DNA of 64,000 bases from Methanococcoides sp. AM1. Its GTDB lineage: Archaea > Halobacteriota > Methanosarcinia > Methanosarcinales > Methanosarcinaceae. The stretch lies in contig NZ_CAAGSW010000002.1 of the NCBI RefSeq assembly GCF_900774055.1, forward strand, positions 434,001 through 498,000, in the 5' to 3' direction. Below are positions 21,246 through 43,407 of this stretch, piece by piece. The notes below the pieces were generated by a model. It was not told the origin of the DNA and did no database searches. It saw nothing but the letters and a program-made list of their open reading frames with translations. The translations under genes were made by a program, and so were the position numbers. The stretch's first letter is position 1. Each line of letters opens with the position of its first letter.

Positions 21246-21286
21246 GCGGGGGTTGCCCAGCCAGGTCAAAGGCGCAGGGCTTAGGA
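21246..21286 (+). pseudogene. 5' half of a tRNA-Leu (TAG) gene, split by integration
   Basis: The acceptor strand GCGGGGG, a complete D-arm and the anticodon stem strand CAGGG with loop CTTAGGA are present. After 21286 the sequence (AACTTCTCACAGGGGTTCGT) only weakly resembles a tRNA and then becomes AT-rich. A TATA-like TTAAATATC lies 29 bases upstream, so the promoter is intact. The missing half is at 57733-57776: together they make a perfect 85-base tRNA-Leu. Confidence 0.9.
21276..21286 (+). repeat. left attachment core
   Basis: AGGGCTTAGGA, covering the anticodon stem and loop of the interrupted tRNA-Leu; identical to 57722-57732. Confidence 0.85.
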
Positions 21287-21374
21287 AACTTCTCACAGGG
21301 GTTCGTAATATTTTTAAATGAAAATACTTCCGTAATATTAATATGTAAAATAGCTATTTAACAACAGCAATTGT

Positions 21375-21459
21375 GCGAGGGTTGCCCAGCCAGGCCAAAG
21401 GCGATGGGCTTAGGACCCATTCTCGTAGGAGTTCGTGCGTTCGAATCGCACCCCTCGCA
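21375..21459 (+). tRNA. tRNA-Leu (TAG), intact and element-borne
   Basis: 85 bases: acceptor GCGAGGG/CCCTCGC, anticodon stem ATGGG/CCCAT with loop CTTAGGA (anticodon TAG), variable arm CTCGTAGGAG, T-arm GTGCGTTCGAATCGCAC, discriminator A, no encoded CCA. A TATA-like TTAATATG lies about 30-37 bases upstream. It sits 89 bases inside the left end of the element and differs from the split gene by paired changes in two helices. Confidence 0.95.
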
Positions 21460-21500
21460 TTCAGGTTATTTAAATTTGATAATACATTAACTACAACCGA

Positions 21501-22325
21501 TTATTTTTCATTCACTTTCTCTTTATTAATAGAAGATAGTAATTTATCTTCCACATCTTTGTATTTTGTTTTTAATACCAAATTTTGGTGAACTGGTGGT
21601 TCCCCATCTTCAGCATCTATATCAGTAAGTGAATCGTGTGATACATCTTTGTATTTTGTTTTTAATAACAATTTTTGGTGGATTAGTGGCTCTTCATCTT
21701 CTGCATCTGTATTATATAGTAATGGTCTTAGCACATCTTTGTAGTAACCATATTCGTAATTTTTGTATCTCAGCGAATTGTTATGGTCACCCAACAAACA
21801 CCTGAATACATCTTCATCCAGTTGTTCTTCTTCAACATGTTTGGTCAATTTATTGAGCATGGGTGCAAGTTGATCATCTATCATTAATCTATAATCTTTC
21901 GACCCCTGATTCTTTTTATCTGTTTCGGAATATTTTTTTAAATCCATCAGCAACAATTTAATAATTTTTGTGATGGCATGATTGAGATGGATGTATTGGT
22001 AATATGCTGTATTTGTAGCGTCGTTTGCCATTTCATTTATTTTATTGTATGCAAGATTTCTTCTATATTCTACGCCACCACCACGAGTTCCTTCTAATTT
22101 AGTTCGAATAACATAATTTTCGAAAATTAAAAAGTCCAAGTATTTAGTTAGTGTACTCTTGCTCATCATTCCTAATTTTCTATGAGATTTTTTTTCTTCG
22201 ATTTGTTTTATCCTTTTAAGATTTGGTTTTAATTTATCATACAATTTATTGTATCTTATTGGATCTCCATTTTCTGGAATCGCATCATATATTTTTTTAT
22301 ATATATCATAATTCATCTTTTGCAA
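21501..22325 (-). CDS. winged-helix protein with C-terminal 30-residue repeats
   Basis: 274 residues, not assigned to a family. The N-terminal 90 residues look like a winged helix (GMMSKSTLTKYLDFLIFENYVI). A helical middle follows. The C-terminus carries repeats beginning YKDV and containing DAEDEEP or DAEDGEP and HQ-L-LKTK. TTG 22325 has GAGG 8 bases upstream; ATG 22316 is an alternative. A perfect 18-bp palindrome lies between its TATA-like box (22363-22373) and the start, so self-repression and control of the divergent replication operon are likely. Confidence 0.65.
   Translation of the reverse strand: MQKMNYDIYKKIYDAIPENGDPIRYNKLYDKLKPNLKRIKQIEEKKSHRKLGMMSKSTLTKYLDFLIFENYVIRTKLEGTRGGGVEYRRNLAYNKINEMANDATNTAYYQYIHLNHAITKIIKLLLMDLKKYSETDKKNQGSKDYRLMIDDQLAPMLNKLTKHVEEEQLDEDVFRCLLGDHNNSLRYKNYEYGYYKDVLRPLLYNTDAEDEEPLIHQKLLLKTKYKDVSHDSLTDIDAEDGEPPVHQNLVLKTKYKDVEDKLLSSINKEKVNEK
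21530..21743 (-). repeat. in-frame 90-bp tandem repeat
   Basis: ACATCTTTGTA recurs at 21553, 21643 and 21733, exactly 90 bases apart. The first two copies match over more than 20 bases. They encode two full 30-residue units and a third partial one in the C-terminus of the regulator. Confidence 0.8.
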
Positions 22326-22340
22326 ATTGTATTCCTCTAC

Positions 22341-22358
22341 ATTTAGTACGTACTAAAT
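22341..22358. promoter_or_regulatory. 18-bp perfect palindrome, likely operator
   Basis: ATTTAGTACGTACTAAAT lies in the divergent gap between the regulator and the replication operon, just downstream of a TATA-like box on the minus strand. Half-site relatives TGTACTAATT occur twice at 41100-41121. Confidence 0.65.
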
Positions 22359-22448
22359 AGATGATATATATTCCCCTGCCCATTATAGGATTGAATCTTC
22401 ATGATTCAAACTCCAAAATAAATCAAAACAAATATAAGGAGTATAAAA

Positions 22449-22616
22449 ATGGTAAATAGTCAAAATTTGAAAGAAAATGAATTAGTTAAAGAATTTGCTT
22501 TGTTGAAGAAAAAGAATCCCGAATTGTATGATCTGATGGCCAAAACAAAACCGATGTTAAAATTGTTTGTTGATGTTTCGGTTGAAATCATGAATATTAA
22601 TGAGGCAGAGGCTTAA
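22449..22616 (+). CDS. small helical protein, 55 residues
   Basis: MVNSQNLKENELVKEF begins a charged helical protein with no Cys or membrane segment. GGAG lies 7 bases before the ATG. It is the first gene of a tight three-gene operon ending in the primase-helicase. No family recognised; a replication accessory role is a guess from position. Confidence 0.6.
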   Translation: MVNSQNLKENELVKEFALLKKKNPELYDLMAKTKPMLKLFVDVSVEIMNINEAEA

Positions 22617-22644
22617 AATGTGGATAAATAAAAAGGTGACTAAA

Positions 22645-22989
22645 ATGATTAATCGTGATGAAATGTCCGTTGAAGAAAGAATAGAATTTGCAAATGATCT
22701 GATCATAGTTGCAGATGAAAGAATAGAAATTGCAAATGAAATGATCGAGGCTGCAAGAGAAATGATTAACTTTGCAAATGAAAAAATAGAAATTGCAGAG
22801 CTAAAAATGAAAATTGCAAATACATTCATCCAAAAGTTAATTGCTAAAATGGAAACGGATGACGAATTACTTGAAGGATATTCCGCTACCTATGAAATTA
22901 TGGGATGTACAAAAGAGGAATGGGAAAAACTATCCTCATTATTGGATTATTGTTTATCTTGCAATACGTACAAGGTGATCCAAATATGA
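22645..22989 (+). CDS. coiled-coil protein with 14-residue repeats
   Basis: 114 residues from ATG 22645, preceded by GGTGAC. Residues about 11-65 are four near-repeats of 14 residues (ERIEFANDLIIVAD, ERIEIANEMIEAAR, EMINFANEKIEIAE, LKMKIAN), which should form a long coiled coil. A globular Cys-containing tail follows. ATGA overlap with the primase gene shows tight coupling, so it may be a partner of that enzyme. No family recognised. Confidence 0.65.
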   Translation: MINRDEMSVEERIEFANDLIIVADERIEIANEMIEAAREMINFANEKIEIAELKMKIANTFIQKLIAKMETDDELLEGYSATYEIMGCTKEEWEKLSSLLDYCLSCNTYKVIQI

Positions 22990-25022
22990 CTGATAATCCG
23001 AAATCTGAACCCGTTGATGAAAAAGAATTTACGGATCTCGCCAAAAACCCGCAAATTAATAATGCTGCAAAAGGAAGTAAGCCAGAAGATGGATATAAAG
23101 ATATCGGAGATCCTAAAAAAACCGATGTTTCAGCATCTTTCATGCTTAAAACAAGCAACTCTGACTTGCAATTTGTGATTGGATATGATGGCAAAAATTT
23201 CCAATTCTATGCAAAATACAAGGATGAACTTCATCCATCCTTTGTCAAAATCAAAGCCGATGATCTCTTTTCATATAATAAAAAGAGAACCATGGACGTT
23301 GCTAACTATATAGCACAAATTACTGAAGGAAACATAGAAGGAAGAAATGCGAAGTCAATTGCTGATGTATTAATGAATAAACTCGGTAATGAACATATCG
23401 ATAATCTTAATGAACTCATTAAAGCATATAATAAGAGGCATCAAAGATCCCTTCATGATAAAGGTAGCAATATCGATATAAAGCCCTTCTGTAAACATCA
23501 CCAGCTGGAAGAAACTCTTGGAAAGAAGATGTTAGAAACTGGAATTAATATTGTAAACGATGGTGCTACGGAAGATTATGTTGCCAGTTCGCTTGAAGAA
23601 AAGTACAAAGTATCTTCAGAAGCCGCATTTGAACTTGCTGACATATTAATGGATATGAGGTATGCTGAAATAATAAACAGCAAACCATCCGAATATTTTT
23701 TGGATGAAAAAAAGAACATCGATGTTCCATTATTGGCATCTGACATTAGGAAATTTTATAGATTCCTAACTGTTGGCAAGAGTGGTAAGAAAGACATCTA
23801 CGTCTACAGGAATGGTGTTTATGTCAATGACGGTGTTGAAGTTATAAGGTGGATGGTCAACAGGTTATTACAAAAATATGTCAAAGAAAAGGATCGTTCA
23901 GAAGCCCTAAGATTCATTGAGGATGAAACTCAAATAGAAAGATCCGAATTAAACAATGATGCACATCTTATAAACCTCACCAATGGACTTTATGACATAA
24001 ATAATGGGCAATTCATACCGCATACACCCGATGTGTATTCTACAATTCGAATTCCAGTAAAATATAACCCCGATGCAGATTGTCCAATGGTTAAGAAGTT
24101 CATGTCCGAAGTCGTTTCTGAAGAAGATGCTCAAACTCTTATTGAATATTCCGGATACTGCCTGATACCAGATACAAAATTGCAAAAAGCATTGATGTTA
24201 TACGGAAATGGAAGGAATGGTAAATCTATATTCCTTCTATTCCTGGAAGATTTTATCGGAGAACATAACATCAGCGGGGTATCACTTCAAAAGCTTGATA
24301 AGGATAAATTCTCTGTTGCCAGACTATTCGGAAAATTGGTGAACATATCGCCTGATATTCCATCACATAGGATTTATTCAGACTCTACTTTCAAAATGCT
24401 AGTTGGTGGAGACAAGATACATGGGGAACAGAAATACAAGGATTCCTTCGAATTCGAAAATACAGCACGATTAATTTTCAGTGCCAACAATCTGCCCCCA
24501 ATTGAAGATGGAACCTATGCGTATTACCGACGGTGGCTCTTAATCCCATTCCCAAATACTTTTGATGGAAAAAAGGAAGATAAAAATTTGCTTCAGAAAT
24601 TATGCACTCCTGAAGAGATGTCGGGATTCTTGAATCTTGCACTTGAAGGTTTACACCGAATACTTAAGAATAACAAGTTTACCTATGAAAAATCCCCCGA
24701 AGATATTGAAAAAACATATCGAGCAAATATAAATTCAGTGGAAACTTTCCTTGAAGATTGCGTTGTGTTCGGTTCCAATGGGTTAATATCAAAGCAGGAA
24801 ATGTATGAAAAATTTAAGGAATGGTGCACCGATAACTGTGCAATACCCATTAAATATAATGCATTTTGCAAAAAGTTGAAAAATGAAGGGGTGCAGGATC
24901 ATCGTATTAATGATGATTCTGGAAACAAGGTATCATATTGGACTTCTGTCAGCTTTAAAGGTGTCAACATTTCACAAATGTCCACCCCGAAAAAGCTAAA
25001 CTTAAAAATTTGCCAGAATTAA
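22986..25022 (+). CDS. P4/D5-type primase-helicase
   Basis: 678 residues from ATG 22986, which has GGTGATC upstream. The SF3 helicase core has Walker A GNGRNGKS (about 405), NISPDIP (about 447) and FSANNLPP (about 495), followed by a D5 C-terminal winged helix. The large N-terminal part may hold primase activity, but I see no clear catalytic primase motif there. This enzyme type starts plasmid, virus and satellite replication. It ends the operon; the terminator overlaps its stop. Confidence 0.88.
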   Translation: MTDNPKSEPVDEKEFTDLAKNPQINNAAKGSKPEDGYKDIGDPKKTDVSASFMLKTSNSDLQFVIGYDGKNFQFYAKYKDELHPSFVKIKADDLFSYNKKRTMDVANYIAQITEGNIEGRNAKSIADVLMNKLGNEHIDNLNELIKAYNKRHQRSLHDKGSNIDIKPFCKHHQLEETLGKKMLETGINIVNDGATEDYVASSLEEKYKVSSEAAFELADILMDMRYAEIINSKPSEYFLDEKKNIDVPLLASDIRKFYRFLTVGKSGKKDIYVYRNGVYVNDGVEVIRWMVNRLLQKYVKEKDRSEALRFIEDETQIERSELNNDAHLINLTNGLYDINNGQFIPHTPDVYSTIRIPVKYNPDADCPMVKKFMSEVVSEEDAQTLIEYSGYCLIPDTKLQKALMLYGNGRNGKSIFLLFLEDFIGEHNISGVSLQKLDKDKFSVARLFGKLVNISPDIPSHRIYSDSTFKMLVGGDKIHGEQKYKDSFEFENTARLIFSANNLPPIEDGTYAYYRRWLLIPFPNTFDGKKEDKNLLQKLCTPEEMSGFLNLALEGLHRILKNNKFTYEKSPEDIEKTYRANINSVETFLEDCVVFGSNGLISKQEMYEKFKEWCTDNCAIPIKYNAFCKKLKNEGVQDHRINDDSGNKVSYWTSVSFKGVNISQMSTPKKLNLKICQN

Positions 25023-25045
25023 TCCAATTCTGGACCTTTTTCTTT
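25013..25045 (+). terminator. terminator after the primase-helicase
   Basis: CCAGAATT (25013-25020) pairs perfectly with AATTCTGG (25026-25033) and is followed by ACCTTTTTCTTTTTT. It overlaps the stop codon. Confidence 0.75.
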
Positions 25046-25105
25046 TTTACGATACTCTTAATTATTATCATTAACAAGAACTAGAAGTTTACTATAATTT
25101 CATAG

Positions 25106-27058
25106 TCAAGGTCCTTCCTTGACATCTTCCCATATATGTTCGTCTGGTTTGCATAATTTGTAATAGTTTTCAAAATTTGTAGAATCAGAGACTATCCCCA
25201 ACTCCATGAAAAAGTCACTTGGATATTTTTGGTGTGGCTCTTCTACAAAAACATCAACAAATCTTTCATACAAATGCTTTAAAACTTCTGCAAAATTGTA
25301 GAACCAATATTCTTTTGGTTCATATGCATTAATCAATTCTTTGTTTTCAGCAAAAACACCTAATTCAGCTATATCAAATAATAATGCATTCGAATTATTA
25401 GGCCACTCCTTAATGATGATTTCGTTTCCGATTTTATGAAGATCATCTATAATGTAATGTATTGCATAATGTACTTCATTACCAATTGCTGCCCGAGCTA
25501 TTTGTCCATATGCTGAATAGACATTATAAGTAGTAGAGTAATCATCTCGTTTCAATAATTCCATGGTTATCTGCTTTAAAATTAAGCTGATTGTCTCAAT
25601 AAGATTTTCTCCATTTTTAGAAACATCATTTATTGGAGTGATCTTTTTAATTATTTTTGTATTCAGAAGTTCCAAATCATTAATTATTTGGTTAACCGGA
25701 TTGTAATCTGATTCTGTTTTTGATGTATAATCGTCTCTTATGGATCGATGCTTTATTTGGTAGTCAACATTTACAATATCTTCTGCAATTGCACCTATTA
25801 TTTCTAACCATCTTTGTATTTTTTGATCATCATAAGATTCTTTATCGATATAGTAATTAATCAAATTAAAAATACAGTCATTTCCTTTATAAGAATAGTC
25901 AACATGGAATGTTTTACTATTAAGGTCAAATGAATGAGTTCCAACACAATCAACTATTTTTTTTGCATTCTTAAAATCGTTTGTGTCGATAAGTATTTTC
26001 CCGATTTTTTCATAATTGTGAATTAAAATTGTATAAGAATGGTAATTTTCTTCGTGGATTGAGATTTTTGCTAGCTTTGTGTAATTTTCAATTATCAATA
26101 ATACAATGTTCTCTTTGATCGTATCGTTAAGAGCATTGTCAAGTAAAATTGGAAATATTTTCTCATTCATTTTATCAATACATTTTGAGAAAAATTTATA
26201 TTCTGATTTTTCAATTGCTAATGCTAAAATATCAAAAACTGACTCAAGATCAGACTCTTGACCAAGAGTTCTTATGTCTAAATTCAATTTTCTAATCTTT
26301 TCACCATCTCTCTTTATATTTTCTGCAAATGTAGGCAAATCAACTTTTTCATCATCATCTGTGTGTTGAAATGTATAATAAGAATGTTTTAAAGCGATAA
26401 GTGGACCCGATATATTTTCTTCTTTTGGATATTCAAATTTATTACAAACTTCAGAAAAAATATCGTAGCTACTTAATGATTTTAAATATAATTCGATTAG
26501 AGTTGATTTATTTGAATAACATAACAATTTGTACAATACGAATAATAGGAAGAATATTGGGAGAAATATGATAGGTAATTCAATATTTAATTCTCGACTG
26601 GTAGGTGTATGATAAAAATTTATTGCCAACACTGCAAAATAAAAAAGTAAGATCAATGCTAAAAAGAAACCATTCATTCTTTTAAATAATAATGTTTTCA
26701 ATAACGGATGGTACTTTGGTTCTAAAACTTGGTGTATTGCGATACCAATGGTTATGATTATAGTAAATAATAAAATAATAGATTGGATTAGCTGATTCAA
26801 TACATTTATCTTTATATCCAATACATCTCCGGTAGATTCAGTATTTCCTGTAACAACATTTGTAGTAGAATTTGTATCGTTATCAGGTAATTGACTGTTG
26901 TTTTTGTTAGATATGTTTTCATTTGTTGTAGAATCATAAGTTCCATTTTGAGTTGCAATATCTGAGGCATAAGCACTAAAAGAACACATTAAAGTCAGGG
27001 CTAAAACCACTAATAAAATTACATATCTGCGGGCAAATATTTTATACAATATTCTCAT
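25106..27058 (-). CDS. large membrane-anchored protein of unknown function
   Basis: 650 residues. An N-terminal signal or anchor (about 12-32, ending FSAYASD) leads to an Asn/Thr-rich stretch (about 35-80) that would be outside. Three to four membrane helices follow (about 85-110, 127-150, 160-185). The remaining 460 residues are hydrophilic, helical and probably cytoplasmic, and have no motif I recognise. AGGGGA lies before the ATG. It is monocistronic next to the ABC-3C operon; a sensing role in defence is only a possibility. Confidence 0.65.
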   Translation of the reverse strand: MRILYKIFARRYVILLVVLALTLMCSFSAYASDIATQNGTYDSTTNENISNKNNSQLPDNDTNSTTNVVTGNTESTGDVLDIKINVLNQLIQSIILLFTIIITIGIAIHQVLEPKYHPLLKTLLFKRMNGFFLALILLFYFAVLAINFYHTPTSRELNIELPIIFLPIFFLLFVLYKLLCYSNKSTLIELYLKSLSSYDIFSEVCNKFEYPKEENISGPLIALKHSYYTFQHTDDDEKVDLPTFAENIKRDGEKIRKLNLDIRTLGQESDLESVFDILALAIEKSEYKFFSKCIDKMNEKIFPILLDNALNDTIKENIVLLIIENYTKLAKISIHEENYHSYTILIHNYEKIGKILIDTNDFKNAKKIVDCVGTHSFDLNSKTFHVDYSYKGNDCIFNLINYYIDKESYDDQKIQRWLEIIGAIAEDIVNVDYQIKHRSIRDDYTSKTESDYNPVNQIINDLELLNTKIIKKITPINDVSKNGENLIETISLILKQITMELLKRDDYSTTYNVYSAYGQIARAAIGNEVHYAIHYIIDDLHKIGNEIIIKEWPNNSNALLFDIAELGVFAENKELINAYEPKEYWFYNFAEVLKHLYERFVDVFVEEPHQKYPSDFFMELGIVSDSTNFENYYKLCKPDEHIWEDVKEGP

Positions 27059-27715
27059 TAATTTTCCCCTAATACTTTTTCAAGAACAAAAGCATAATAA
27101 AATTTATAGTTTCTCTTTAAGATCGTGTGGGTAATTATTCCTTCTTACAAGCAAATATTCGCAATTGTAGATAGTTCCCTTGGACAATCCTTTAACTGAT
27201 ATGTGATATTTTTGGTCATACGATTGCGATTTGCATGAGTTCTTTGAATTCCATGACGATTGAAAGGCAGATGTAAATTAATTTAGTTACTCACTCGATG
27301 TTGAGGAGATCCAAAAATAGATTGTACTCCCCTTACATGAGCATTTGAGCAAATGGAATTTCAATCTTAGTGTTTTTCGATATCATGATATCAAGCAATC
27401 AAAGAACCATTAATTTACGAGGGTGTAGGGAGGTTCTACTCTAGCTTTTGGATATAGATAACTCAACATTTATCCAATCATCCAATTGTTTTAGTATCTT
27501 CAAAAGATCAATAACTTTGATATAATATAAACTAACTAACACTTTGCATAATAGTTTGAATCAAAATCGCTATATTTCAGGAAAATTTAATTTTTTTGAA
27601 TAATGTAATAACGCATAAAATGAAATAAAACACGTTCATATTCAAATTTATATTCTTGAAAAATGTAGAATACTATATGCCTAAATTGATGTTTTGAGAA
27701 AATGAAGTTGAGTAT
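27059..27715. other. 657-bp non-coding stretch
   Basis: No gene is supported. It contains the perfect 14-bp palindrome GATATCATGATATC (27379-27392) and, near 27671, a TATA-like ACTATATGCC suited to the ABC-3C operon. It is AT-rich otherwise. Confidence 0.4.
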
Positions 27716-28846
27716 ATGGGTAGTAAAATAAAGCATAGTGCAGCACCCTCAATTGAAGGGACAATATATCAATTCTATATTGCTATTGACAAATGTTTTG
27801 AACTACTTGAAGGTGAAAAAATATTCATTGAGACGTATGGTGATGTAACTGTCTCTGGTATGTGTCAAATAGAAGTGAAACATTACACCGAAGATTTAAC
27901 AGACCTGCATGAAAATGTTTGGAAAACAATCAATAATTGGTTACAAGATAATTTTGATACCGGTTTTTATAAAAATCTAATACTTCTAACAACTCAAAGA
28001 TTCGGATCAAAATCATCATTCAAAGGATGGAATAATAGATTGAAGTCTGAGAAAAAGCAGATATTAGATGATATTGCTCTGAAGTACCAGCAACGAAATA
28101 ATAGAAGTCAATCAACTGAAAAGTTACTTGATTCAGTCTTGGATGACACCAAAAAAGATAAGCTACTGGATATTTTAGACAAATTTATAATTTTTGATTC
28201 TTCGGCAGAAAGCACCACTTATTATGAAATGATTAAACAAAAACATGGAAAAGCTGTTTTATCTTCAAATGCAGATGATTATATTAATTCATTAATGGGA
28301 TATTTACTTTCACCAGAAGTTAGAATTGGTGACGGATGGGAGATTACATATCAAGGTTTTACTTCCAAAGTGAGAGCATTAGTAAATCAGTTTCGATCTG
28401 GAACTACTATTTTTCCAAAACCAAGTTTAAACATTGATAATGATAAGATTGATAGTCACAATGAACACCTATTTGTAAAAAAAATAGAAGACATCGATTA
28501 TCATGAGATAAAAGGTAAAGCTATTTCAGATTATGTACGCACAAATTATACTATTTCTCAAGAATTTAAAAAATATGCTGTCGAGAAAAAGCACTATAAT
28601 GACTATGAACAAGAAATATTGGATACCTATAATCCTGCTTATAGTAAAGCTTCAAGAAACACAAATGAAACTGACAGAACAAGCGATTCAAAAGATTTCT
28701 ATGATACAATTACTGCTTCAGAAGCTCCACAGTTCATACATTTCAATGACACTCCAAAGTTCTTTAAAAATGGAATTTTGCATGGTTTGGCAAACGATGA
28801 AGATAAAAATGTTGTTTGGAAATTAAAGGTGGATAAGGATGAGTAA
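27716..28846 (+). CDS. ABC-3C effector with PD-(D/E)XK-like nuclease domain
   Basis: 376 residues. The N-terminus (SIEGTIYQFYIAIDKC, then FIETYGDVT and CQIEVKHYTED) resembles the restriction-like nuclease domains of DUF4297/Cap4-type proteins, with candidate catalytic Glu, Asp and the E-V-K core. The C-terminal half has no recognised motif. Its last 8 bases overlap the middle-component gene, and the ATPase follows, which is the order of ABC three-component systems. The effector probably cuts nucleic acid when the ATPase is triggered; that is inferred from the family. Confidence 0.75.
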   Translation: MGSKIKHSAAPSIEGTIYQFYIAIDKCFELLEGEKIFIETYGDVTVSGMCQIEVKHYTEDLTDLHENVWKTINNWLQDNFDTGFYKNLILLTTQRFGSKSSFKGWNNRLKSEKKQILDDIALKYQQRNNRSQSTEKLLDSVLDDTKKDKLLDILDKFIIFDSSAESTTYYEMIKQKHGKAVLSSNADDYINSLMGYLLSPEVRIGDGWEITYQGFTSKVRALVNQFRSGTTIFPKPSLNIDNDKIDSHNEHLFVKKIEDIDYHEIKGKAISDYVRTNYTISQEFKKYAVEKKHYNDYEQEILDTYNPAYSKASRNTNETDRTSDSKDFYDTITASEAPQFIHFNDTPKFFKNGILHGLANDEDKNVVWKLKVDKDE

Positions 28847-29300
28847 ATTTGTAGATAGCGTATCTCAAATACACAACAATCCATTTGTATTATCTCCTTT
28901 AATTGTTGAGTTTTTTAAGTATATACCTCCAAAACCCCAAAATCTCCTTTTAGCATATTTAGTGTTACCATTAGTTTTGCATGAAGACAGCAAAAATTGG
29001 TTGTCACGAGCTAAAACAACAAGTTCAATACATACATTGAAAAAGAACAAAGAGAACCTTTTTGGACTTCAAGAGAGAGTCTATCTCTATCAAGATTTAA
29101 CAAATAAATGTATCCAATATGCAGTGGATAATGAAATAATTAAAATCAATGATGACTTAATTATTGAAGTGTTGAAGACAGAATATAACACTGCAGAATA
29201 CCTGAAAAAGTCGCTAAAAGCATCATCAAATTTACATAAAGTTTTTCGAGATTTAGAGATTGTTGCCATATATCGATTATTGGGAGTTAAAATGCTATGA
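28839..29300 (+). CDS. ABC three-component system middle component
   Basis: 153 residues. The segment NLLLAYLVLPLVLHEDSKNWL is the hallmark of the middle component; further helices follow. AAGG lies just before the start, inside the effector gene; ATGA overlap couples it to the ATPase gene. In known systems it bridges effector and ATPase. It has no catalytic motif of its own. Confidence 0.82.
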   Translation: MSKFVDSVSQIHNNPFVLSPLIVEFFKYIPPKPQNLLLAYLVLPLVLHEDSKNWLSRAKTTSSIHTLKKNKENLFGLQERVYLYQDLTNKCIQYAVDNEIIKINDDLIIEVLKTEYNTAEYLKKSLKASSNLHKVFRDLEIVAIYRLLGVKML

Positions 29301-31321
29301 AAAGCTGTTTACTATATATTGGGGTGATTGACAAACTTGATAAAGTACATTTTGTTGAGTTTGGACCTGGTGTTAATGTAATAACTGGTAAATCATCGAC
29401 CGGTAAAAGTGCAATGATTGAAATATTTGATTATTGCTTTGGGAGTTCTGAATTCACTATACCAGCAGGAATTATTACCGATTCTGCTCAACTTTATTTT
29501 ATTGTGTTGTCAGTTAAAGAAACCAATATCATTTTGGCAAGGACTCCACAAAAAAAAGCAGTGTTTTTGAAAACTGAATCTTCTTTACCCAACATAGAAG
29601 ATCTATCGATTGATTACTTCGATGATAATTATTTCATCAATTTCAAAGATTTTAAACTTGAACTTGGCCGATATTTTGGTCTTGAAATCGTCGACACGGA
29701 TGAAGATCTGGAAGACCGAAAATATACAAAAATGAAAAAAGCTAGGCCATCTATAAGAAATATGACTCCCTTTATGCTACAACATCAAAACTTAATTGCA
29801 AATAAGCATGCTATCTTTTACAGGTTTGATGAAAAAGAAAAAAGGGAACATACCATTGATCAATTTAAAATATTTGCTGGTTTTGTAAACCAAGAATACT
29901 TTTTAATTAACCAGAAATTAGCAGATGAAGAGAGAAATCTAAAACAGTTGGAAAGGAAGCAAAAAAGCATTGAAGAGCAATTTGCTAAAAACTGCGAAGA
30001 ACTTGAAAATTTATTAAAAGAATTCATTGCAATTACTGGTAATGAATGTTTAAAAGAAAAACCCAAAACAATATTGTCAAACCCAGCAAATTACCTAGAT
30101 AAAATAAATTCTAAAAAAATAGAATCAAATTATGAATCAAATGAAGCCCTAATTCAGTTGCAAAATTTAAAAGAACGTAAAAATAATTTATTTGCACAAC
30201 AACGAACTCTTCAAATTAAACTTAATGACATAAATTCATCGGTAGAGTATGCAAATAATTATAAGGAATACTTAAACGATGTTCCTGAAAAAGATGATGA
30301 AATTATTTATTTATCTCAGTGCCCCTTTTGTAAAACTTCAAATGAAAGTATTTTAACTGAGGCTAATCTGCTATCTGAGTCCATTAAATGGCTTAATGAT
30401 GAATTAAGTAAATCCACTTACTTATTGGATTCTTTTGAGTCTGATAAAAAAAGATTTGAACAAGAAATTAAGCAAACTAAAAGAGAAATTACAGGGGTAT
30501 ACTCTGAAATTACAAAGCTTGAAAATATAACAAAAAATTTGAGAGCAAATCGTGATTTAGATGAACAAGGATTAAAAGTAAAATTAAAAATAGAAAACTT
30601 TTTAGAAAAACAGATTGCAGCAAATGGTTTAAATCTAGAAACGGAGATGAAAAATTCAAAGGATCATATTAAAAGTCTTAAAAGCACTCTCCGAGAAAAA
30701 TACAATGTTGAACACAAGCTCAAAGATGCAGAAACATATATAAACAATACAATGAACCAAATTGGTAATAATTTTGATTTTGAAGAATCATACAAACCAG
30801 TTAACCTTAAATTTTCATTAGATCGTTTTGAACTCTGGAACGAAAAAGGTCAATATGAAAGAATATATCTTCGTTCTATGGGAAGTGGTGCAAATTGGTT
30901 ATATAGCCATTTAACGCTTTTCATGTCACTTCACAAATACTTCTGCTCACTGGGTAGTCAATCTTTGCTTCCACCAATCTTGTTTTTAGACCAACCAAGT
31001 CAAGTATATTTCCCAACATCAATTGTAGACGATGGCAACAATTTTGATGCTTCAAAATTAAAAGAGAAGGAAGGCAAAAAGGAAAAAACTGATGACGATT
31101 TAGCTGCAGTGAATAATTTATTTGACCAAATTGTTAAATTTGCGAATAATACTCTCAAAGAAACAGGAATCAAACCTCAGATTATTATTACAGATCATGC
31201 AGATAATTTGAAATTGGATAATGCTGAATTTGATTCATTAGTAAAAAATCGAAGATGGAGGGACAGAGGTTTCATTGTGCCATCTGATAAAATTAGTGAA
31301 GTAAACATACTTGGTGAATAA
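29297..31321 (+). CDS. DUF3732-type ABC ATPase of the ABC-3C system
   Basis: 674 residues. Walker A GKSSTGKS at 31-38 follows VNVITG. A long SMC-like coiled coil (about 200-500) is interrupted by a CPFC motif near 338. The C-terminus has LRSMGSGANWLYSHL as signature region and ILFLDQPSQVY as Walker B, then a region with IIITDHADNLKL. This is the architecture of ABC-3C ATPases, proposed to sense DNA and license the nuclease. The stop overlaps a possible GTG of the next small gene. Confidence 0.85.
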   Translation: MKSCLLYIGVIDKLDKVHFVEFGPGVNVITGKSSTGKSAMIEIFDYCFGSSEFTIPAGIITDSAQLYFIVLSVKETNIILARTPQKKAVFLKTESSLPNIEDLSIDYFDDNYFINFKDFKLELGRYFGLEIVDTDEDLEDRKYTKMKKARPSIRNMTPFMLQHQNLIANKHAIFYRFDEKEKREHTIDQFKIFAGFVNQEYFLINQKLADEERNLKQLERKQKSIEEQFAKNCEELENLLKEFIAITGNECLKEKPKTILSNPANYLDKINSKKIESNYESNEALIQLQNLKERKNNLFAQQRTLQIKLNDINSSVEYANNYKEYLNDVPEKDDEIIYLSQCPFCKTSNESILTEANLLSESIKWLNDELSKSTYLLDSFESDKKRFEQEIKQTKREITGVYSEITKLENITKNLRANRDLDEQGLKVKLKIENFLEKQIAANGLNLETEMKNSKDHIKSLKSTLREKYNVEHKLKDAETYINNTMNQIGNNFDFEESYKPVNLKFSLDRFELWNEKGQYERIYLRSMGSGANWLYSHLTLFMSLHKYFCSLGSQSLLPPILFLDQPSQVYFPTSIVDDGNNFDASKLKEKEGKKEKTDDDLAAVNNLFDQIVKFANNTLKETGIKPQIIITDHADNLKLDNAEFDSLVKNRRWRDRGFIVPSDKISEVNILGE

Positions 31322-31439
31322 AACGACAAAGATCCTTGGCCTATTTTTAAGATTTATGTCTTCGCCCGCTCTATTAATAGCAGCCATCGTTTACGTGCTG
31401 ATCCCTGATGAAAGAGAATATCAAAGATATGATTATTAA
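31314..31439 (+). CDS. possible 41-residue membrane protein after ABC-3C
   Basis: GTG at 31314 overlaps the ATPase stop (GTGAATAA). The product is MNKTTKILGLFLRFMSS, one hydrophobic helix (ALLIAAIVYVLI) and a polar tail PDEREYQRYDY. Positive-inside charge suits a single-pass protein. A shorter version starts at ATG 31356 (27 residues). It sits 8 bases before another small membrane protein. Real but unproven. Confidence 0.4.
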   Translation: MNKTTKILGLFLRFMSSPALLIAAIVYVLIPDEREYQRYDY

Positions 31440-31447
31440 GTGATCAA

Positions 31448-31645
31448 ATGAGTTCTGCAAATTTTGAACCTCTGGAATCATTCATAAATTCAATAATTGG
31501 TATTGTTTCGCTATTAATTATTGCAATACTTTTAGCCGTATTTCTTGCAATATATCAGTATTTGAACATGGATGTAACTTTCATTATACCTTTACTTGAA
31601 GCAATAAATTCAGTTATTAACAGTCTTCAATCATTATTTGGTTAA
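31448..31645 (+). CDS. small membrane protein, 65 residues
   Basis: One long hydrophobic helix (about 16-38, IIGIVSLLIIAILLAVFLAIY) and a second amphipathic or hydrophobic stretch (about 45-65). Preceded by AGTGATCAA at usual ribosome-site distance. It follows the 41-residue frame by 8 bases and closes the ABC-3C operon. No family recognised. Confidence 0.6.
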   Translation: MSSANFEPLESFINSIIGIVSLLIIAILLAVFLAIYQYLNMDVTFIIPLLEAINSVINSLQSLFG

Positions 31646-31692
31646 GGTAAGTTCAAAATAAATTATTCTTAGAATCAGAGATTGATATTCTT

Positions 31693-31893
31693 ATCCTGTC
31701 CAGTACCCTGTCCGCAGAATATCGCCATCAATAGGCACTGTTGGACAGGATGCAGGATAAAGCCCATATTGTAATCTCCACAGGAATATTTTCTCAAAAT
31801 TTTTCTATAATAATCTACAATATGGCTTTTTTTCTCATCCTGTCCAGTAGATTAAGATTATTCAAATTTAATCAGGACAGGTTGTTGGACAGG
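31693..31893. repeat. cluster of CCTGTCC/GGACAGG heptamers
   Basis: In the 639-bp gap 31646-32284 the heptamer occurs six times: forward at 31695, 31707 and 31839; reverse at 31743, 31875 and 31887. ATCCTGTCCAGTA is a perfect 13-bp repeat (31693 and 31837). ATCCTGTCC (31693-31701) can pair with GGACAGGAT (31743-31751). It looks like iterons of an origin or a multi-site operator. The rest of the gap is AT-rich with no gene. Confidence 0.6.
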
Positions 31894-32284
31894 TTACTAC
31901 AAAGTTCAAAATAAAAAATTTACAGCATATCAAATAAGTTTATATAGTGTCAAATTAATTCTATATTATCATATTTATCTCCTATTTTTTCTCTTTTTCA
32001 GAACGAAGTCCATTTAAAATTAATTAATGCTGAAACACTTCGCTTAAACCTTATTTTAAACCTTCCTAAAGGCATTGCATTGCAAATCATACATTTCCAT
32101 TTACTCATTGTTTTCTACTCTCAAACAGGCTGAGATTCACTCTGAGATACATTCAAAGCTATACTTAGTCCTCTTCAGAAGCTGCACCGAAGCTTCCAGA
32201 ATACAGTCCAAAACGAATGTTTATATAAATAAATCGTAAAAAATATTATTAGGTCTACACTATGTGCAGCCCTAGGAGAAATTA

Positions 32285-33178
32285 ATGAAAAAGTACAATG
32301 ATAATTCACTTAAAAGTCAAATACTGAATGCGGTTCATAAGCTTGGAGATAATGCAATTTCCAGGAAGATACGTGAGTTAATCGAATACAAAGGTTCCAA
32401 CTCCAACTTCAAGTCGGAAATCTATGCCCTTAAACGCAGGGGATACCTTAGCTTCGCTCCTGAATCAAAGGACAGAAAGGTAAAACAATACATTCTGACA
32501 AAAAAAGGAAAATTCCATCGGTTGCAGCCGGACTATTATCAAAGAATGAAGGTACAAAAACTCAATGCAACAGTCCATGGAATACTCAACGATGATGAAA
32601 AATTCACAGCAGCAGTCGATAGTGAAGTTGATAATAGAATGGAAATTATCGAGAAAAATGTTGAAAGCATTATAACCGGTAGTGCGAATAATTTCAGTGA
32701 ACCCACTTCAAAAGGTGAAATGACTGTAGCGAATATAATCGCAAAGAAAGATAAAGAAATAAAAACTTGGCAATCTCGTTATTTCAATCAGGTCAATTCA
32801 CGTCCTGTCGAAAGTAAAATCAATAAAACTACACAGCGAACTGCTAAGAAGAATACTGATGAAAAAAGAATTGAGGACAGGAAAAAACTTGCCAACCATT
32901 ATTATCAGAAGAAGTTATGGCTGGATTTTGAATTTTTCTCACAATGGAAGAATATGGTTCCAGTGCTTCTTAGCGGAAAGAAATTCCTGAACAAGAGAAG
33001 CGTTGAAATTATGTCAATTGATGAAGCCAAGCGGGAGATGGATAGAGGGCATACCAGAGCAATATTGCAGTCCAATGATGAGATTCTAGCTTGTTGTTTC
33101 CGGATTGATAAAATAAATAAAGATGGGATAGTCGTCAAGAGCGATAGATTGGATTTGAAGAAGAATATGAAATGGTAA
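32285..33178 (+). CDS. winged-helix DNA-binding protein
   Basis: 297 residues. The N-terminal 75 residues look like a winged helix (LKSQILNAVHKLGDNAIS, FKSEIYALKRRGYLSF, then KQYILTKKGKFHRL). A charged middle and a C-terminal domain (about 215-297, YYQKKLWLDFEFFSQW and DEILACCFRIDKINKDG) have no known match. AGGAGA lies 8 bases before the ATG. It follows the heptamer cluster, so it could be the protein that binds there, as initiator or regulator. Family unknown. Confidence 0.6.
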   Translation: MKKYNDNSLKSQILNAVHKLGDNAISRKIRELIEYKGSNSNFKSEIYALKRRGYLSFAPESKDRKVKQYILTKKGKFHRLQPDYYQRMKVQKLNATVHGILNDDEKFTAAVDSEVDNRMEIIEKNVESIITGSANNFSEPTSKGEMTVANIIAKKDKEIKTWQSRYFNQVNSRPVESKINKTTQRTAKKNTDEKRIEDRKKLANHYYQKKLWLDFEFFSQWKNMVPVLLSGKKFLNKRSVEIMSIDEAKREMDRGHTRAILQSNDEILACCFRIDKINKDGIVVKSDRLDLKKNMKW

Positions 33179-33292
33179 AATTGTATGTGGCATCCATCAA
33201 GTTCTGACTAGCATTTGATAAATGAAAACTCTATAAAATATTAATGCGGGTGCTGATTAAATTTTTATAGAGCAGGATGCTCTTAATCTATA

Positions 33293-34984
33293 ATGTCTAT
33301 GAAGAATTTTTATTGCGTCATTTGTGGTTCTGAACTTGAAGACCGTGGACATACGTGTTCCAACAAATGCCACTTAGCATTAATGGATTTTAAAGGGAGT
33401 TACAAAGAATATTTACCGAATGGATATTGTAATTTTTGTGGTAAACCCCATAGCCTAACAAAAAACCTTAGCCATAAAAATATGATACTCCTTCGACACC
33501 CTGAATGCTATTCTTCTTCATTTGCCAAGCAATTTTGTGATAAAAATAAGGTCGCTAAAGTAATGACAAAAGACATAGACACAAATAAAGAATTCAGATT
33601 AGCATCAGGAGAAAAGGTATATGATACTCTCACTGGGCTTTTAATGTGTCCAAAATGTAAAAATTATTCTCTTGAATATAATGATTGGAAAAAAGAATGG
33701 ATTTGTAAATTATGCGGAACGAATTCTAATAAATCATTAATAATTAATTGGTATGCATTCAATTTAAAAGACAATGACAAATATATGATATACAAGAATC
33801 ACGGCATTGAAGCACTTTCTGAAATTACGAAAAAACCTGTGGGCAAAATTGAACTTTTTATATCATCATATTTTGAGAATTGTTGTACTTCAAAGGGAGA
33901 AAAATGTCCATATCATACTTTTTTTGATGTACCTGATAATTATGAAGCAGCTAAAATCAGTCACTTGTTCTATGACATGAGAAATAAATATGTTCGATTA
34001 TTGACTGCCACCAATATGCTTAAACATGGGATAAAAGAATCTGAAAAACGTTTCAAAATAAATGATTTAATCATCCTCGAGTTCTTTAAAAGTGAACTAG
34101 AGGAATTATATGAAACGATACTCCAATCAATTAATAGAATGCACGATTATATGATTGGATTTGCGGACGATGACATAATAAGAAACCAATGTGTTTATTA
34201 TTCTGAAATAAATCCAAATATCATATACGTAACCGGCAAAGAAGAAAATGCATGTTATGCTTGGAATGATGCAATAAAAGGGCAGTTGGTTGGTGTATTT
34301 GGATTACCTATTAGTGCAATTATGGATTTTGCCCATAGTATTACTGAAACTTACATGGCATTTCAATTATTTTTGGAAAAGCAACCACATGCGAAGTTAA
34401 AATCCGAAAAAATAGAACCTATTGAAAAGAAGGTTTTGAATTTAATAAAATCTGAAAAAGGCATTTATCAAATGGATGTGTGGAGAACATTGGGAATGGA
34501 CTACCGAGAGTGCTCAAGAATTGTGACAAAATTATTGAGTAAAAATTTAATTAAAAGAGAGAAAGCTCCATCAAATGTATTAGCTACCTACAAATTATTA
34601 CCAAAATCTACAATTCATAAATCTGAATCAGCAGAAGATTTTCTGAAACAATATTATGTGGAACTGGACGACCTTATTAATTATGATTTTAAGGAGCCTG
34701 AATTATGGTATTGGACATTTAAAGAATCCTATGACCAAGATATCGTTTTTACAAATTTTGGCAATCCTGATTTGCAGTATAAGAAGGATATGCAAGAATT
34801 TGTAGAAAGCTTGCAAAAAGAGAAGCTTCCTTTCGAAATATTAGAGTCATTACATATTAGCTCAAGGGTGGTAAAAATTAATAATATTACATATTATGAA
34901 ATTACGAATGAAGACCTTATTGAAATATATGAGGAAGATGGATATTTCATCGATATGATTCATGCAAATATCATAATAAATTAA
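33293..34984 (+). CDS. multi-zinc-ribbon protein with winged-helix domain
   Basis: 563 residues. Several Cys pairs lie in the first 155 residues: CVICGSE with CSNKCH, CNFCGK, CPKC with CKLCG, enough for about three zinc sites. A mid region has a further CC/CPYH group. Residues about 375-440 look like a MarR or AsnC-type winged helix (EKKVLNLIKSEKGIYQMDVWRTLGM). The C-terminal part has no recognised motif. A TATA-like box (TTTTTATAG near 33262) close to the ATG suggests a leaderless transcript. Probably a nucleic-acid binding protein; function unknown. Confidence 0.6.
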   Translation: MSMKNFYCVICGSELEDRGHTCSNKCHLALMDFKGSYKEYLPNGYCNFCGKPHSLTKNLSHKNMILLRHPECYSSSFAKQFCDKNKVAKVMTKDIDTNKEFRLASGEKVYDTLTGLLMCPKCKNYSLEYNDWKKEWICKLCGTNSNKSLIINWYAFNLKDNDKYMIYKNHGIEALSEITKKPVGKIELFISSYFENCCTSKGEKCPYHTFFDVPDNYEAAKISHLFYDMRNKYVRLLTATNMLKHGIKESEKRFKINDLIILEFFKSELEELYETILQSINRMHDYMIGFADDDIIRNQCVYYSEINPNIIYVTGKEENACYAWNDAIKGQLVGVFGLPISAIMDFAHSITETYMAFQLFLEKQPHAKLKSEKIEPIEKKVLNLIKSEKGIYQMDVWRTLGMDYRECSRIVTKLLSKNLIKREKAPSNVLATYKLLPKSTIHKSESAEDFLKQYYVELDDLINYDFKEPELWYWTFKESYDQDIVFTNFGNPDLQYKKDMQEFVESLQKEKLPFEILESLHISSRVVKINNITYYEITNEDLIEIYEEDGYFIDMIHANIIIN

Positions 34985-35094
34985 AGATGTAATGATTGGA
35001 AGGTCATGTTCTGAGATTAATATTTTACGTATTATACCCATCCTTTTTTAATATCTTTTACAATCAGAGTTCCTGAATTTCTATTTCTTGAATC

Positions 35095-36453
35095 CTACGT
35101 AATGGGGTTAAATGATGAGGTATGTCTTTTTGGATAAAATCTTGGTTCTTCATCCGTTACAATTTTTATCCTTCCCTGAACCCATTTTTGTATCCTTAGT
35201 TTATTATCATTATCATGTTCAATTATTTCGCAATCAAAATTTGACATTTTGAAACGTTTCATATCGCTGACAAATATTTGATACTCAGCAAGAATTGTTA
35301 CTTTTTGTTCATTATAGTCTTTGAAACTACAATCATCAATATTTCGATTGGACTCTCTTATTTGAATTTCATTCCACAACAACTTGTTCAAACTTTGACG
35401 GGATTTTGGAATATTTGGTTTTGGATTTTCTTTTGTTTGGTTATTGGTATGGACATCTGTAATATGCTGTTGCAAAAGAATTTCGGTAGGGAAATTTTGA
35501 CCACAATATTTACAAATTTTATAAGTATGTATCTTTTTGATATGTTTATTCAAACTCTTTTTTGATTGGAACATTTCTCCACAGCATTTGCATGTGACAT
35601 GCATTTCTTTAATATGCTTTTCCAAACCATTTATTGATTGGAAAAATTTTCCACAGCATTTGCATATGAAGTGGGTGTCTTTGACATGTTTTTTAAAACT
35701 CTTTTTTGATTGGAAAATTTCTCCACAGCATTTGCATGTGACATGCATTTCTTTAATATGCTTTTCCAAACCATTTATTGATTGGAAAATTTCTCCACAG
35801 CATTTGCAAGTATGCACGTCTTTAATATGCTGTTTTAAACTAATATCAGATTGGAACTCTTTATCACAATATTTGCAAGTATGCACGTCTTTAATATGTT
35901 GTTCTAACAGAATTTCTGATTGGAACTCTTTATCACAATATTTGCATATGATGTGGGCATCTTTAATATGCTGTTGCAAAAGAATTTCAGTAGGGAAATT
36001 TTGACCACAATAGTTGCAGTGGTAATGCACATTTTTAAGATGCTTTTTCAAACTTTTCATTGATTGGAAGTATTCACCACAGTATTTGCAGCTGTTATGC
36101 ACGTCTTTAATATGCTGTTCCAACAGAATTTCTGATTGGAACTCTTTATCACAATATTTGCATATGATGTGGGCATCTTCAATATGCTGCTTCAAAAGAA
36201 TTTTTGATTGGAACTTTTCATCACAATATTTGCAAATATAAGTATTCAGCATTTCATCGGAATATACTATATGCTTTCCTTCATCCTCTCCATGAATTGT
36301 TGGTAGTGGAGTTTTTACAGTTGATGAGGATTTAGCTTTAATAAAATCAAGTTCACCTTCATCTTTCACTTCAGTAACGTATACAGAAGTCATACAATTG
36401 CTGCAAAATTCATTAAATCCAACAGTTTTTCCACAACTTCTACATATCAACAT
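35095..36453 (-). CDS. polydactyl C2H2 zinc-finger protein (11 tandem fingers)
   Basis: 452 residues. A zinc ribbon (Cys 4, 7, 17, 20) starts the protein. From about residue 74 to 335 there are eleven consecutive fingers of the form C-x2-C-x12-H-x4-H (examples CKYCDEKFQ to HIEDAH; CNYCGQNFP to HIKDAH), joined by only one to four residues and without the TGEKP linker of eukaryotic proteins. The C-terminal 110 residues are not recognised. Arrays of this length are a eukaryotic hallmark and rare in archaea. DNA binding is likely, target unknown. The + strand shows near-identical repeats of fingers. Confidence 0.85.
   Translation of the reverse strand: MLICRSCGKTVGFNEFCSNCMTSVYVTEVKDEGELDFIKAKSSSTVKTPLPTIHGEDEGKHIVYSDEMLNTYICKYCDEKFQSKILLKQHIEDAHIICKYCDKEFQSEILLEQHIKDVHNSCKYCGEYFQSMKSLKKHLKNVHYHCNYCGQNFPTEILLQQHIKDAHIICKYCDKEFQSEILLEQHIKDVHTCKYCDKEFQSDISLKQHIKDVHTCKCCGEIFQSINGLEKHIKEMHVTCKCCGEIFQSKKSFKKHVKDTHFICKCCGKFFQSINGLEKHIKEMHVTCKCCGEMFQSKKSLNKHIKKIHTYKICKYCGQNFPTEILLQQHITDVHTNNQTKENPKPNIPKSRQSLNKLLWNEIQIRESNRNIDDCSFKDYNEQKVTILAEYQIFVSDMKRFKMSNFDCEIIEHDNDNKLRIQKWVQGRIKIVTDEEPRFYPKRHTSSFNPIT
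35564..35789 (-). repeat. two-finger duplication, 144-bp period
   Basis: A stretch of more than 60 nearly identical bases around CCACAGCATTTGCATGTGAC (from 35579) recurs from 35723, exactly 144 bases or two 24-codon fingers later. Another long match links the finger at about 35455 with that at about 35958. It shows recent expansion of the array. Confidence 0.75.
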
Positions 36454-36588
36454 ACAATTGCTTTAATTATTAAATATATATAAGCATGCCTAAAATTAAT
36501 TTATATTTAATATGTTAGGAATATATTGCTAAATTTAATGCTATCGGAATTATAAGTTCTTAAATAAAATAAATCTTTAATTTAATTT

Positions 36589-37137
36589 ATGGATAAAGAA
36601 AACCGTTCATATCTGAAAATCAAAAGAGAGCACTTACAAAAACTAAGACACATAACGGTTAAAGACCAAGATTCTTTTTTTTCAAGATATCCAAAATATA
36701 ATTTATTTCGTGAAAAGATTTACTGTATTCTTTTAGTTCAAGGTGCAGCTTTGCATTATGTTAATGGAATTAATGGGATTAAAGATTTTGATGTCCTAGT
36801 ATTATACAAAGAAAATGGCAATAAATATGATGAAGATGGCAAGTTGATACGAATTTATCCAAAAAGAGTATGTTCTTATGATTGTGAGATGGCAGAATTT
36901 GGTCGGTATCCAAATGATGATATTGATAAATATCCCAATCGTAGAGTTGATGTTTTAATGAGAGAAATTGGAAATGATTTAACAGATAATTCTGATTTGA
37001 TTACAGCAATTAATAAATATTTTGAAAATGGCACTACCCAGTCTATAAAAGAATGGAGAAAAAAGGCTGTAGTCGGAATATGGCCAGATGAGATTCAAAG
37101 CAAAGTGATGTGGCATAAAGAACTCATACTTGATTAA
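36589..37137 (+). CDS. nucleotidyltransferase-like protein
   Basis: 182 residues. A nucleotidyltransferase core is suggested by QGAALHYVNGING, then IKDFDVLVLY (paired acidic residues) and a third Asp in NRRVDVLM. No HEPN or other partner domain is fused. The transcript may be leaderless. It could be the catalytic part of a toxin or modifying system such as MNT or AbiEii-type proteins, but no antitoxin is seen next to it. Moderate certainty for the fold, low for the role. Confidence 0.55.
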   Translation: MDKENRSYLKIKREHLQKLRHITVKDQDSFFSRYPKYNLFREKIYCILLVQGAALHYVNGINGIKDFDVLVLYKENGNKYDEDGKLIRIYPKRVCSYDCEMAEFGRYPNDDIDKYPNRRVDVLMREIGNDLTDNSDLITAINKYFENGTTQSIKEWRKKAVVGIWPDEIQSKVMWHKELILD

Positions 37138-37249
37138 TTACGAGAATGCTGTGTCTTTAATAGAATGCTGTTCGATACCCTCAACTTAGTCATTTAATTT
37201 AAATATGAAGATAACTTCTATACAATTCTGATAAATGAGGTGAATTATT

Positions 37250-37924
37250 ATGGACTATTTTTGCTCAAAGTGCAAAGAAGCGATTACATCTAAAGAATAT
37301 GATTATTCTATGAACAAATACAATTGTGCTTTATGCCGAGAACATCAAAAAAGTTTCTCCAGCACAAATAATCCAACAATAAAATCTAATAATAATTCAA
37401 TTTCTGAAGAACCTACTAAAAAAGATTCCCAGAGCGGTCTATCCAAGAGGGAACATTATTACAAAGAGAGCATGATTAAAGGCAGGATTGCAGAAACTCT
37501 TATTGAAGAATTGTTTTTGTCTTTAGATTATTCTGTTTTCAGGTACGGTATGGAAAACACTGTGCCCGGAATAATGAATCTTTTAAAGGGAGTCAGAAGT
37601 GATGTGGCTACAAACATCAGGCGTATGCCAGATTTCGTGATTCAAAATAACAAAGGGGAAGTCTTTTTTATTGAAGTGAAATTCAGAAAAAGCGAAGAAT
37701 TTAAATTCAAAGATTTACCCAAAGATTATCCATATGAAAACTGTTATTTTGTTGTCGTTTCAAAGAAGCACATAAAATGCATCTCATATGAAGAACTTAA
37801 AAATGGTAAAGAAATAACTCCAAAATGTCATAATTATTTGGGCAATAGAAAGGAGTTTGAATTGGATAAAGATGTGATTGTTGATTTCTGTAATTTTGCA
37901 GTGAAGTTCTTTGATTCAGTATGA
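37250..37924 (+). CDS. PD-(D/E)XK nuclease-like protein with zinc ribbon
   Basis: 224 residues. An N-terminal ribbon (CSKCKE and CALCRE) precedes a Ser-rich linker. From about 85, GRIAETLIEELFLSLDYSVF, RMPDFVIQNN and VFFIEVKFRKS give the E, PD and ExK residues of a restriction-like nuclease. GAGGTGA lies before the ATG. It ends 9 bases into the convergent BglII-like gene. Confidence 0.7.
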   Translation: MDYFCSKCKEAITSKEYDYSMNKYNCALCREHQKSFSSTNNPTIKSNNNSISEEPTKKDSQSGLSKREHYYKESMIKGRIAETLIEELFLSLDYSVFRYGMENTVPGIMNLLKGVRSDVATNIRRMPDFVIQNNKGEVFFIEVKFRKSEEFKFKDLPKDYPYENCYFVVVSKKHIKCISYEELKNGKEITPKCHNYLGNRKEFELDKDVIVDFCNFAVKFFDSV

Positions 37925-38428
37925 GTTATTTTCTGGTAGTAATCCCAACAATAGTATAGGAACTGGAATCGGCAATAATTTGAAATATCGATATGCAAAA
38001 TCAAATTCTGCCATGTTGCTAACACTCGATGGTCTTGTTGGAAAGAACTCTTTTGGGGTAGTTGGAACAATCAGCACCGCAAGTGAAAGCAAGTTTTTTG
38101 TTAATCCATAATGGAATTTGTAGTAATCACGGTAGATAGTGGCACTGTTTCCAAACTGAACTTCTATGAATACATCATCCTTTTGAAAATCTCCTATCAG
38201 CTTCGGATTATCGTGGAGTAATGGTTTCTTTTGCCAATCAGATTTTGAAAATTCAGCTTCAAATGCCTTGTTATATGCTGTTTGATGTTGGAATGTATTA
38301 TTGCCAACTTCAATTTCAAATTCAGGTTTCCACTCTATAGCATCAATGCAATCAAATATCTCATGGACTTCATCGACATTGCGTAGAAGCTTAGGACTGC
38401 AAAAGAAATATTCTTCCTTAAATTTCAT
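37916..38428 (-). CDS. BglII/BstYI-family restriction endonuclease-like protein
   Basis: 170 residues, shorter than BglII itself. The segment LIGDFQKDDVFIEVQFGNS followed by IYRDYYKFHYGL matches the active-site region of this family (Asp, then E-V-Q). LAVLIVPT is also typical. No DNA methyltransferase for such a site lies beside it. Its ATG overlaps the stop of the upstream membrane protein (ATGA), so it is the last gene of an operon of four. A lone nuclease like this may target invading DNA. Confidence 0.7.
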   Translation of the reverse strand: MKFKEEYFFCSPKLLRNVDEVHEIFDCIDAIEWKPEFEIEVGNNTFQHQTAYNKAFEAEFSKSDWQKKPLLHDNPKLIGDFQKDDVFIEVQFGNSATIYRDYYKFHYGLTKNLLSLAVLIVPTTPKEFFPTRPSSVSNMAEFDFAYRYFKLLPIPVPILLLGLLPENNSY

Positions 38429-39003: not shown

Positions 39004-39071
39004 TTTTTCATTGTCCTTTTATGATTCATCGCTCCATCATCTTTTTCACAACAAACTTCCATGCCATTACC

Positions 39072-43284: not shown

Positions 43285-43407
43285 TATATCCTTCTAATTT
43301 TTTACATTTTTCTGAAATTGTTATTCCATTTGCATCTAATATCTTTCAGCTATTTTACATTTAAATAATAATGTATATATATAAATTCAAAGTTATTAAC
43401 TTTTTAT

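Follow-up and report, generated by a model that had tools for sequence, protein, structure and literature searches.

The closest described system is tRNA-dependent lysogeny in mycobacteriophages, proven by experiment for Fionnbharth (K4) and for Cluster L phages (Guerrero-Bustamante & Hatfull 2024; PMC10865867): according to the available text of that paper, integration at a 10-bp core leaves the host tRNA gene unrebuilt and the phage tRNA is required. The same text cites prophage Lj965 of Lactobacillus johnsonii, which reportedly does not rebuild its target tRNA either and encodes the cognate one, and its authors raise the question of how far such lysogeny reaches past the actinobacteriophages. 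For Archaea, the accessible part of a review of tyrosine recombinases (PMC8371274) states that targets are as a rule rebuilt and describes no carried replacement. ICEHin1056 and ICEApl1 enter a tRNA-Leu gene of hosts with several copies, where a 66-bp repeat yields a complete but altered tRNA-Leu, and they carry no separate full tRNA (PMC4908127).

We analysed a 64,000-nucleotide stretch of the genome of Methanococcoides sp. AM1 (the window; genome G000), in which an integrated element splits a tRNA-Leu(TAG) gene and carries an intact one. By analogy, the mechanism appears to be that of tRNA-dependent lysogeny, here in Archaea, with a re-paired anticodon stem as a new feature. Shared with the mycobacteriophage system, as the available text of PMC10865867 presents it, are a tyrosine integrase, an attB within a host tRNA gene, a core of ~10 bp, an unrebuilt target, a complete carried tRNA and a single host copy. 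On the other hand, i) the hosts here are archaeal, and the elements are mostly non-viral defence islands, with one tailed virus (vir524); ii) the tRNA adjoins attP, while that of Fionnbharth lies ~2.8 kb from the integrase gene; iii) the integrase clade spans five leucine isoacceptors and is known here from sequence alone, the mycobacteriophage systems from experiments; iv) the anticodon stem is consistently re-paired, a point not discussed for mycobacteriophages in that text. Lj965 differs in being a bacterial prophage, and ICEHin1056 and ICEApl1 resemble the present element in their tRNA-Leu target. With the canonical archaeal integrases (SSV, pNOB8, pTN3 and pT26-2 types, as covered in the accessible part of PMC8371274) the element shares a tyrosine recombinase and an attB in the anticodon region of a tRNA; unlike them, it leaves the target unrebuilt, keeps its integrase gene unsplit (not the suicidal SSV type) and carries a full replacement tRNA. 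A literature search, with most subscription journals outside its range, found no description of this arrangement in Archaea.

Intact and split tRNA-Leu(TAG) genes in the window

ARAGORN called a tRNA-Leu(tag) at 21374-21460, and Rfam model RF00005 matched 21375-21459 (46.1 bits, E 1.3e-8) with the region searched alone. The gene (21375..21459, + strand) has the anticodon stem ATGGG/CCCAT, keeps its pairing in all five helices and lies ~90 bp inside the left end of the element, where the earlier note had placed a tRNA of the element's own. RF00005 scans of the whole window and of the whole genome left it unlisted, as they did, genome-wide, the GAG tRNA; tRNA counts from the whole-genome RF00005 scan alone would mislead, so copies were sought by DNA and pattern searches.

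The native tRNA-Leu(TAG) survives as two separate pieces, a 5' part at 21246..21286 (+ strand; attL; 84% match to the intact tRNA, C2:455245-455306), which ends in the att core AGGGCTTAGGA (21276-21286), and a 3' part at 57722..57776 (+ strand; attR; 95% match at C2:491723-491777), which begins with the second core copy (57722-57732). This 11-bp core is common to both junctions and contains the anticodon loop. Because attP and attB share only ~11 bp, the gene is cut in two and not rebuilt: each junction holds half a tRNA and neither encodes a full one. Joined in a script, the halves gave a complete 85-nt tRNA that differs at one base from its intact native counterpart in G001, G006 and G004. 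Relative to the native gene, the carried tRNA has its fourth acceptor pair changed from G-C to A-T and its anticodon stem from CAGGG/CCCTG to ATGGG/CCCAT. These are the helix changes that the earlier note had named (A-T for G-C in the acceptor, AT/AT for CA/TG in the anticodon stem), and as compensated pair differences from both halves they bear out its statement that the intact tRNA is the partner of neither.

Empty and occupied sites in Methanococcoides

In the same neighbourhood of G001, G004, G006 and G007 there is one intact tRNA with the stem CAGGG/CCCTG and no insert, and G003 has the same kind of native gene near a contig end. Thus the tRNA found at this place in element-free strains is of the native CAGGG type and not the carried one, a result that could have gone against the proposal that the intact copy belongs to the element. 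In G002, G005, G008, G009 and G010 the site is occupied: a broken 5' part is followed, after 90-100 bp, by an intact tRNA of the ATGGG/CCCAT type, and the broken 3' part adjoins the integrase at the other end. A chance origin is excluded, since five further Methanococcoides genomes have the same arrangement at this locus. The carried tRNA of G010 is identical to that of G000 over 86 bases, while their integrases are only ~50% identical. G002 also has a second native-type tRNA-Leu(TAG) locus (L137, 754-832), a few kb beyond attR, with native-type flanks and a partly deleted anticodon arm, possibly the scar of an imprecise excision.

Whether the host has another tRNA for these codons had been left to a count in the full genome. 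DNA and pattern searches of G000, G005 and G010 with the TAG D-arm and anticodon arm returned two kinds of match only, the arm left from the broken native gene and the intact carried copy. G005 and G010 are each assembled in a single contig and bear the same kind of element; in G000, a draft (99.93% complete, 46 contigs) whose gaps could hold a second TAG gene, no second intact copy was found. Leucine tRNAs located elsewhere in G000 have the anticodons GAG, CAG and TAA. Under standard decoding rules CUA is read only by UAG, and CTA accounts for 26 of 5601 codons in 15 window genes outside the element. By these searches no intact TAG tRNA besides the carried one was found in G000, although another tRNA might decode CUA in an unusual way, and tRNA-Leu(TAG) is presumably essential to the host.

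Attachment arms, promoter and cargo

The element body spans 21287..57721, as delimited by the core copies at 21276 and 57722 and by genus-mates without the insert, and the integrated unit measures 36,446 bp (~36.4 kb) from core to core. Near-inverted repeats, CGAAGCCCTGT on the right (57707..57717, + strand) and ACAGGGGTTCG on the left (21295..21305, + strand), would flank the core in the deduced attP and are putative integrase sites. Left arms comparable to that of the window, AGGGCTTCG, occur in G002, G005, G008, G009 and G010, and similar right arms in G010 and others. The stretch at 21287-21310 resembles a tRNA variable arm, as though a longer piece of the tRNA had been duplicated, but as a near-inverted repeat of the right arm it is better taken as the left attP arm.

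Upstream of the carried tRNA, the TATA-like box TTAATATG (21338..21345, + strand) is, by position and spacing, its putative own promoter. Nine elements have such a box at -35 to -39 of their carried tRNA, with the spacing of the native gene, which points to an independent promoter; the carried tRNA is presumably expressed and charged.

The tyrosine integrase (56539..57681, - strand; 380 aa; Pfam PF00589 and alignment) has zinc-ribbon-like cysteines at its C-terminus. Its gene starts ~40 bp from the right core, and the reading frame is unsplit, with the att core outside it; the enzyme is probably still active. Further along the element are a D5-like primase/helicase (D5_N, DUF5906; 22905..25022, + strand), a probable replication protein by Pfam and by its PHROGs match to DNA primase, and as cargo i) Lamassu-like or ABC-three-component defence genes (LmuA, LmuC, LmuB; 27716..31321, + strand; PADLOC, Pfam) and ii) type III restriction-modification genes (methylase, helicase/nuclease) with an Mrr-like nuclease (PDC-S02; 45511..52779, - strand; domain matches and PADLOC). 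No structural or packaging family was found by Pfam or PHROGs among the proteins scanned from the window element. Judged by its genes, the element is an integrative island with a tyrosine integrase and defence genes, and does not count as a temperate phage.

Several other features of the window deserve mention. A 452-aa protein encoded on the element (35095-36453, - strand) has ~ten tandem C2H2 zinc fingers, with 72-bp DNA repeats at 35447-35980; long tandem arrays of such fingers are typical of eukaryotes. Two genes on the element have RNase III domains (39072-39545 and 44193-44627, both - strand), RNase III being uncommon in archaea. At 6850-6949 (+ strand) lies an mtbB PYLIS element (Rfam RF02509), which indicates pyrrolysine use by the host, as expected for a methylotrophic methanogen.

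An integrase clade across the leucine isoacceptors

By score, the integrase falls into a well-separated clade: 33 loci exceed 468 bits in 238 genomes of the class, and the next stands at 318 bits. Of the 35 clade loci examined, 34 have a tRNA-Leu 3' half near the integrase; 18 control loci with weaker-scoring integrases gave one genuine tRNA-Leu match. The sole clade member without a recognisable tRNA-Leu half alongside, on contig C7 of G008 (L141, L158), is either decayed or directed at another target. The broken tRNAs of the clade comprise all five leucine isoacceptors (TAG, CAG, TAA, CAA and GAG), the integrated copies at CAA and GAG targets being read at the integrase end only. Wherever the left end is readable, the broken 5' half is followed by an intact tRNA with the matching anticodon: TAG in Methanococcoides, Methanolobus, the Methanosarcinaceae MAG G034 and a Methanomicrobiales MAG, CAG in G008 and Methanosarcina UBA5, and TAA in G034 and Methanosarcina UBA289. 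Since the compared elements share little besides the integrase, integrase, attP and tRNA appear to travel as a module.

In Methanosarcina UBA289 (L216, 949-8000) and in L164 (at 6151) several left ends stand in tandem with TAA and CAG tRNAs, some without a native 5' half; this resembles an array built up by repeated insertion. At 2557 of L216 a CAG tRNA lies behind a CTTAAGA core, a possible mismatch between target and carried tRNA.

Two sequences show the module in attP form. On a 3.4-kb metagenomic contig (L155), the integrase start, the core GTTGAGGG and an intact tRNA-Leu(GAG) follow one another with no native 5' half, the layout of an attP as a circular or tandem form would present it. 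Moreover, vir524 (L253, BK063669.1), a circular record of 38.5 kb assigned to the tailed viruses of Methanomicrobiales, encodes at 8793-10113 an integrase of 39% identity, the core GGTTCAGGGCC and, ~50 bp further, an intact tRNA-Leu(CAG) with the stem CTAGC/GCTAG; this match came from the scan of the phage collection, the viral_contigs scan yielding only a 26% hit. From this gene order vir524 looks like an archaeal temperate virus bearing the module, and tRNA-dependent lysogeny in an archaeal virus is probable.

The re-paired anticodon stem

In ten native/carried comparisons the anticodon stem differed in every one and the loop in none: 19 of 50 stem bases, 0 of 70 loop bases and 11 of 290 bases in the acceptor and D-arm were changed. 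The significance given by the Fisher p of 3e-12 is overstated, because the comparisons share ancestry, and the Methanosarcinaceae TAG cases may be a single event. Within the 5' half, native and carried copies differ in the stem alone in G034 (TAG), UBA5 (CAG) and UBA289 (TAA), and in Methanolobus at one D-loop base as well. Carried tRNAs that were read over their whole length have a stem whose two sides pair, and helix changes are compensated across carried and native tRNAs.

The loop is kept because it is the anticodon, and the same loop is where the integrase crosses over. On the simplest reading, the changed stem keeps the carried tRNA from serving as attB for its own integrase. Alternatively, the change could be neutral, the tRNA having been captured from a lineage with another stem without selection; TAG genes beside tRNA-Gly in other genera of the family are also ATGGG. 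In view of these genes and of the possibly single TAG event, we put protection from the element's own integrase only a little above an even chance.

Mechanism and alternatives

We consider it highly probable that the element breaks the single tRNA-Leu(TAG) of its host and survives by carrying a complete replacement for CUA decoding. The crossover core of the tyrosine integrase would be the anticodon loop of the host's only tRNA-Leu(TAG), a full-length tRNA-Leu(TAG) under a TATA-like promoter of its own would take over CUA decoding from the destroyed gene, and the carried copy, loop retained and stem re-paired, may be spared as attB by the integrase that brought it.

Ordinary tRNA-targeted integration, with the target rebuilt at one junction and the third copy an unrelated duplicate, is the rule in archaea (accessible part of PMC8371274), and ICEApl1 rebuilds tRNA-Leu through its 66-bp repeat (PMC4908127). 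Here it is refuted by the junction sequences, both of which hold only half tRNAs, and it keeps hardly any probability: compensated pair changes set the intact copy apart from both halves, and many unrelated elements have such a copy next to attL. A carried tRNA might instead serve the element's own translation or counter tRNA-cleaving defences, roles that the available text of PMC10865867 discusses for phage tRNAs, with rescue of the host incidental; that is very improbable for a single tRNA that stands next to attP and is of the broken isoacceptor, for TAG, CAG and TAA targets, in elements whose other genes are mostly unrelated.

The earlier note had seen in the tRNA both a replacement for the broken gene and an addiction device. 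The former part holds, as the carried gene is the only intact TAG tRNA found; the latter is not supported in that form, as the halves rejoin to a complete native gene. That the tRNA mainly makes loss of the element lethal is in our judgement unlikely. It is the only TAG tRNA, as addiction would have it, and in Methanolobus vulcani PL 12/M attL has apparently been lost, so that no exit would restore the native gene. The broken halves are, however, well preserved, and precise excision would restore the native gene complete; clean loss should cost the host nothing, and therefore retention against clean loss is not enforced. If just the left end were lost, the one TAG tRNA would go with it. We therefore prefer to see the tRNA as the means by which a host survives insertion into an essential gene, and its protection against imprecise loss as secondary.

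M. vulcani PL 12/M has an intact carried-type tRNA (GCTTGG, GATGGG) directly after a native-type promoter; a broken 5' half was not found, and the 58.4-kb contig of this tRNA also holds integrase and attR. The two 5' repeats have probably been joined by a deletion, suggesting that there the element's tRNA has turned into a host gene and the element is locked in, with no clean exit. For the clade as a whole, the balance leans narrowly towards a wider reading: its integrative elements and viruses would have spread over the five leucine isoacceptors with crossover site and carried tRNA changing in step, the replacement would be a disguised target, and occasional loss of attL would make the foreign tRNA a permanent host gene.

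Thus a strategy proven in mycobacteriophages can now be placed in Archaea, in defence islands and a tailed virus and across several methanogen genera. The re-paired stem suggests a simple answer to the problem of self-attack that such elements face, and the arrangement suggests a route by which an essential host tRNA gene may be replaced by a mobile element's version. Annotators should note that in several Methanococcoides and Methanolobus genomes the tRNA-Leu(UAG) gene is carried by an element.
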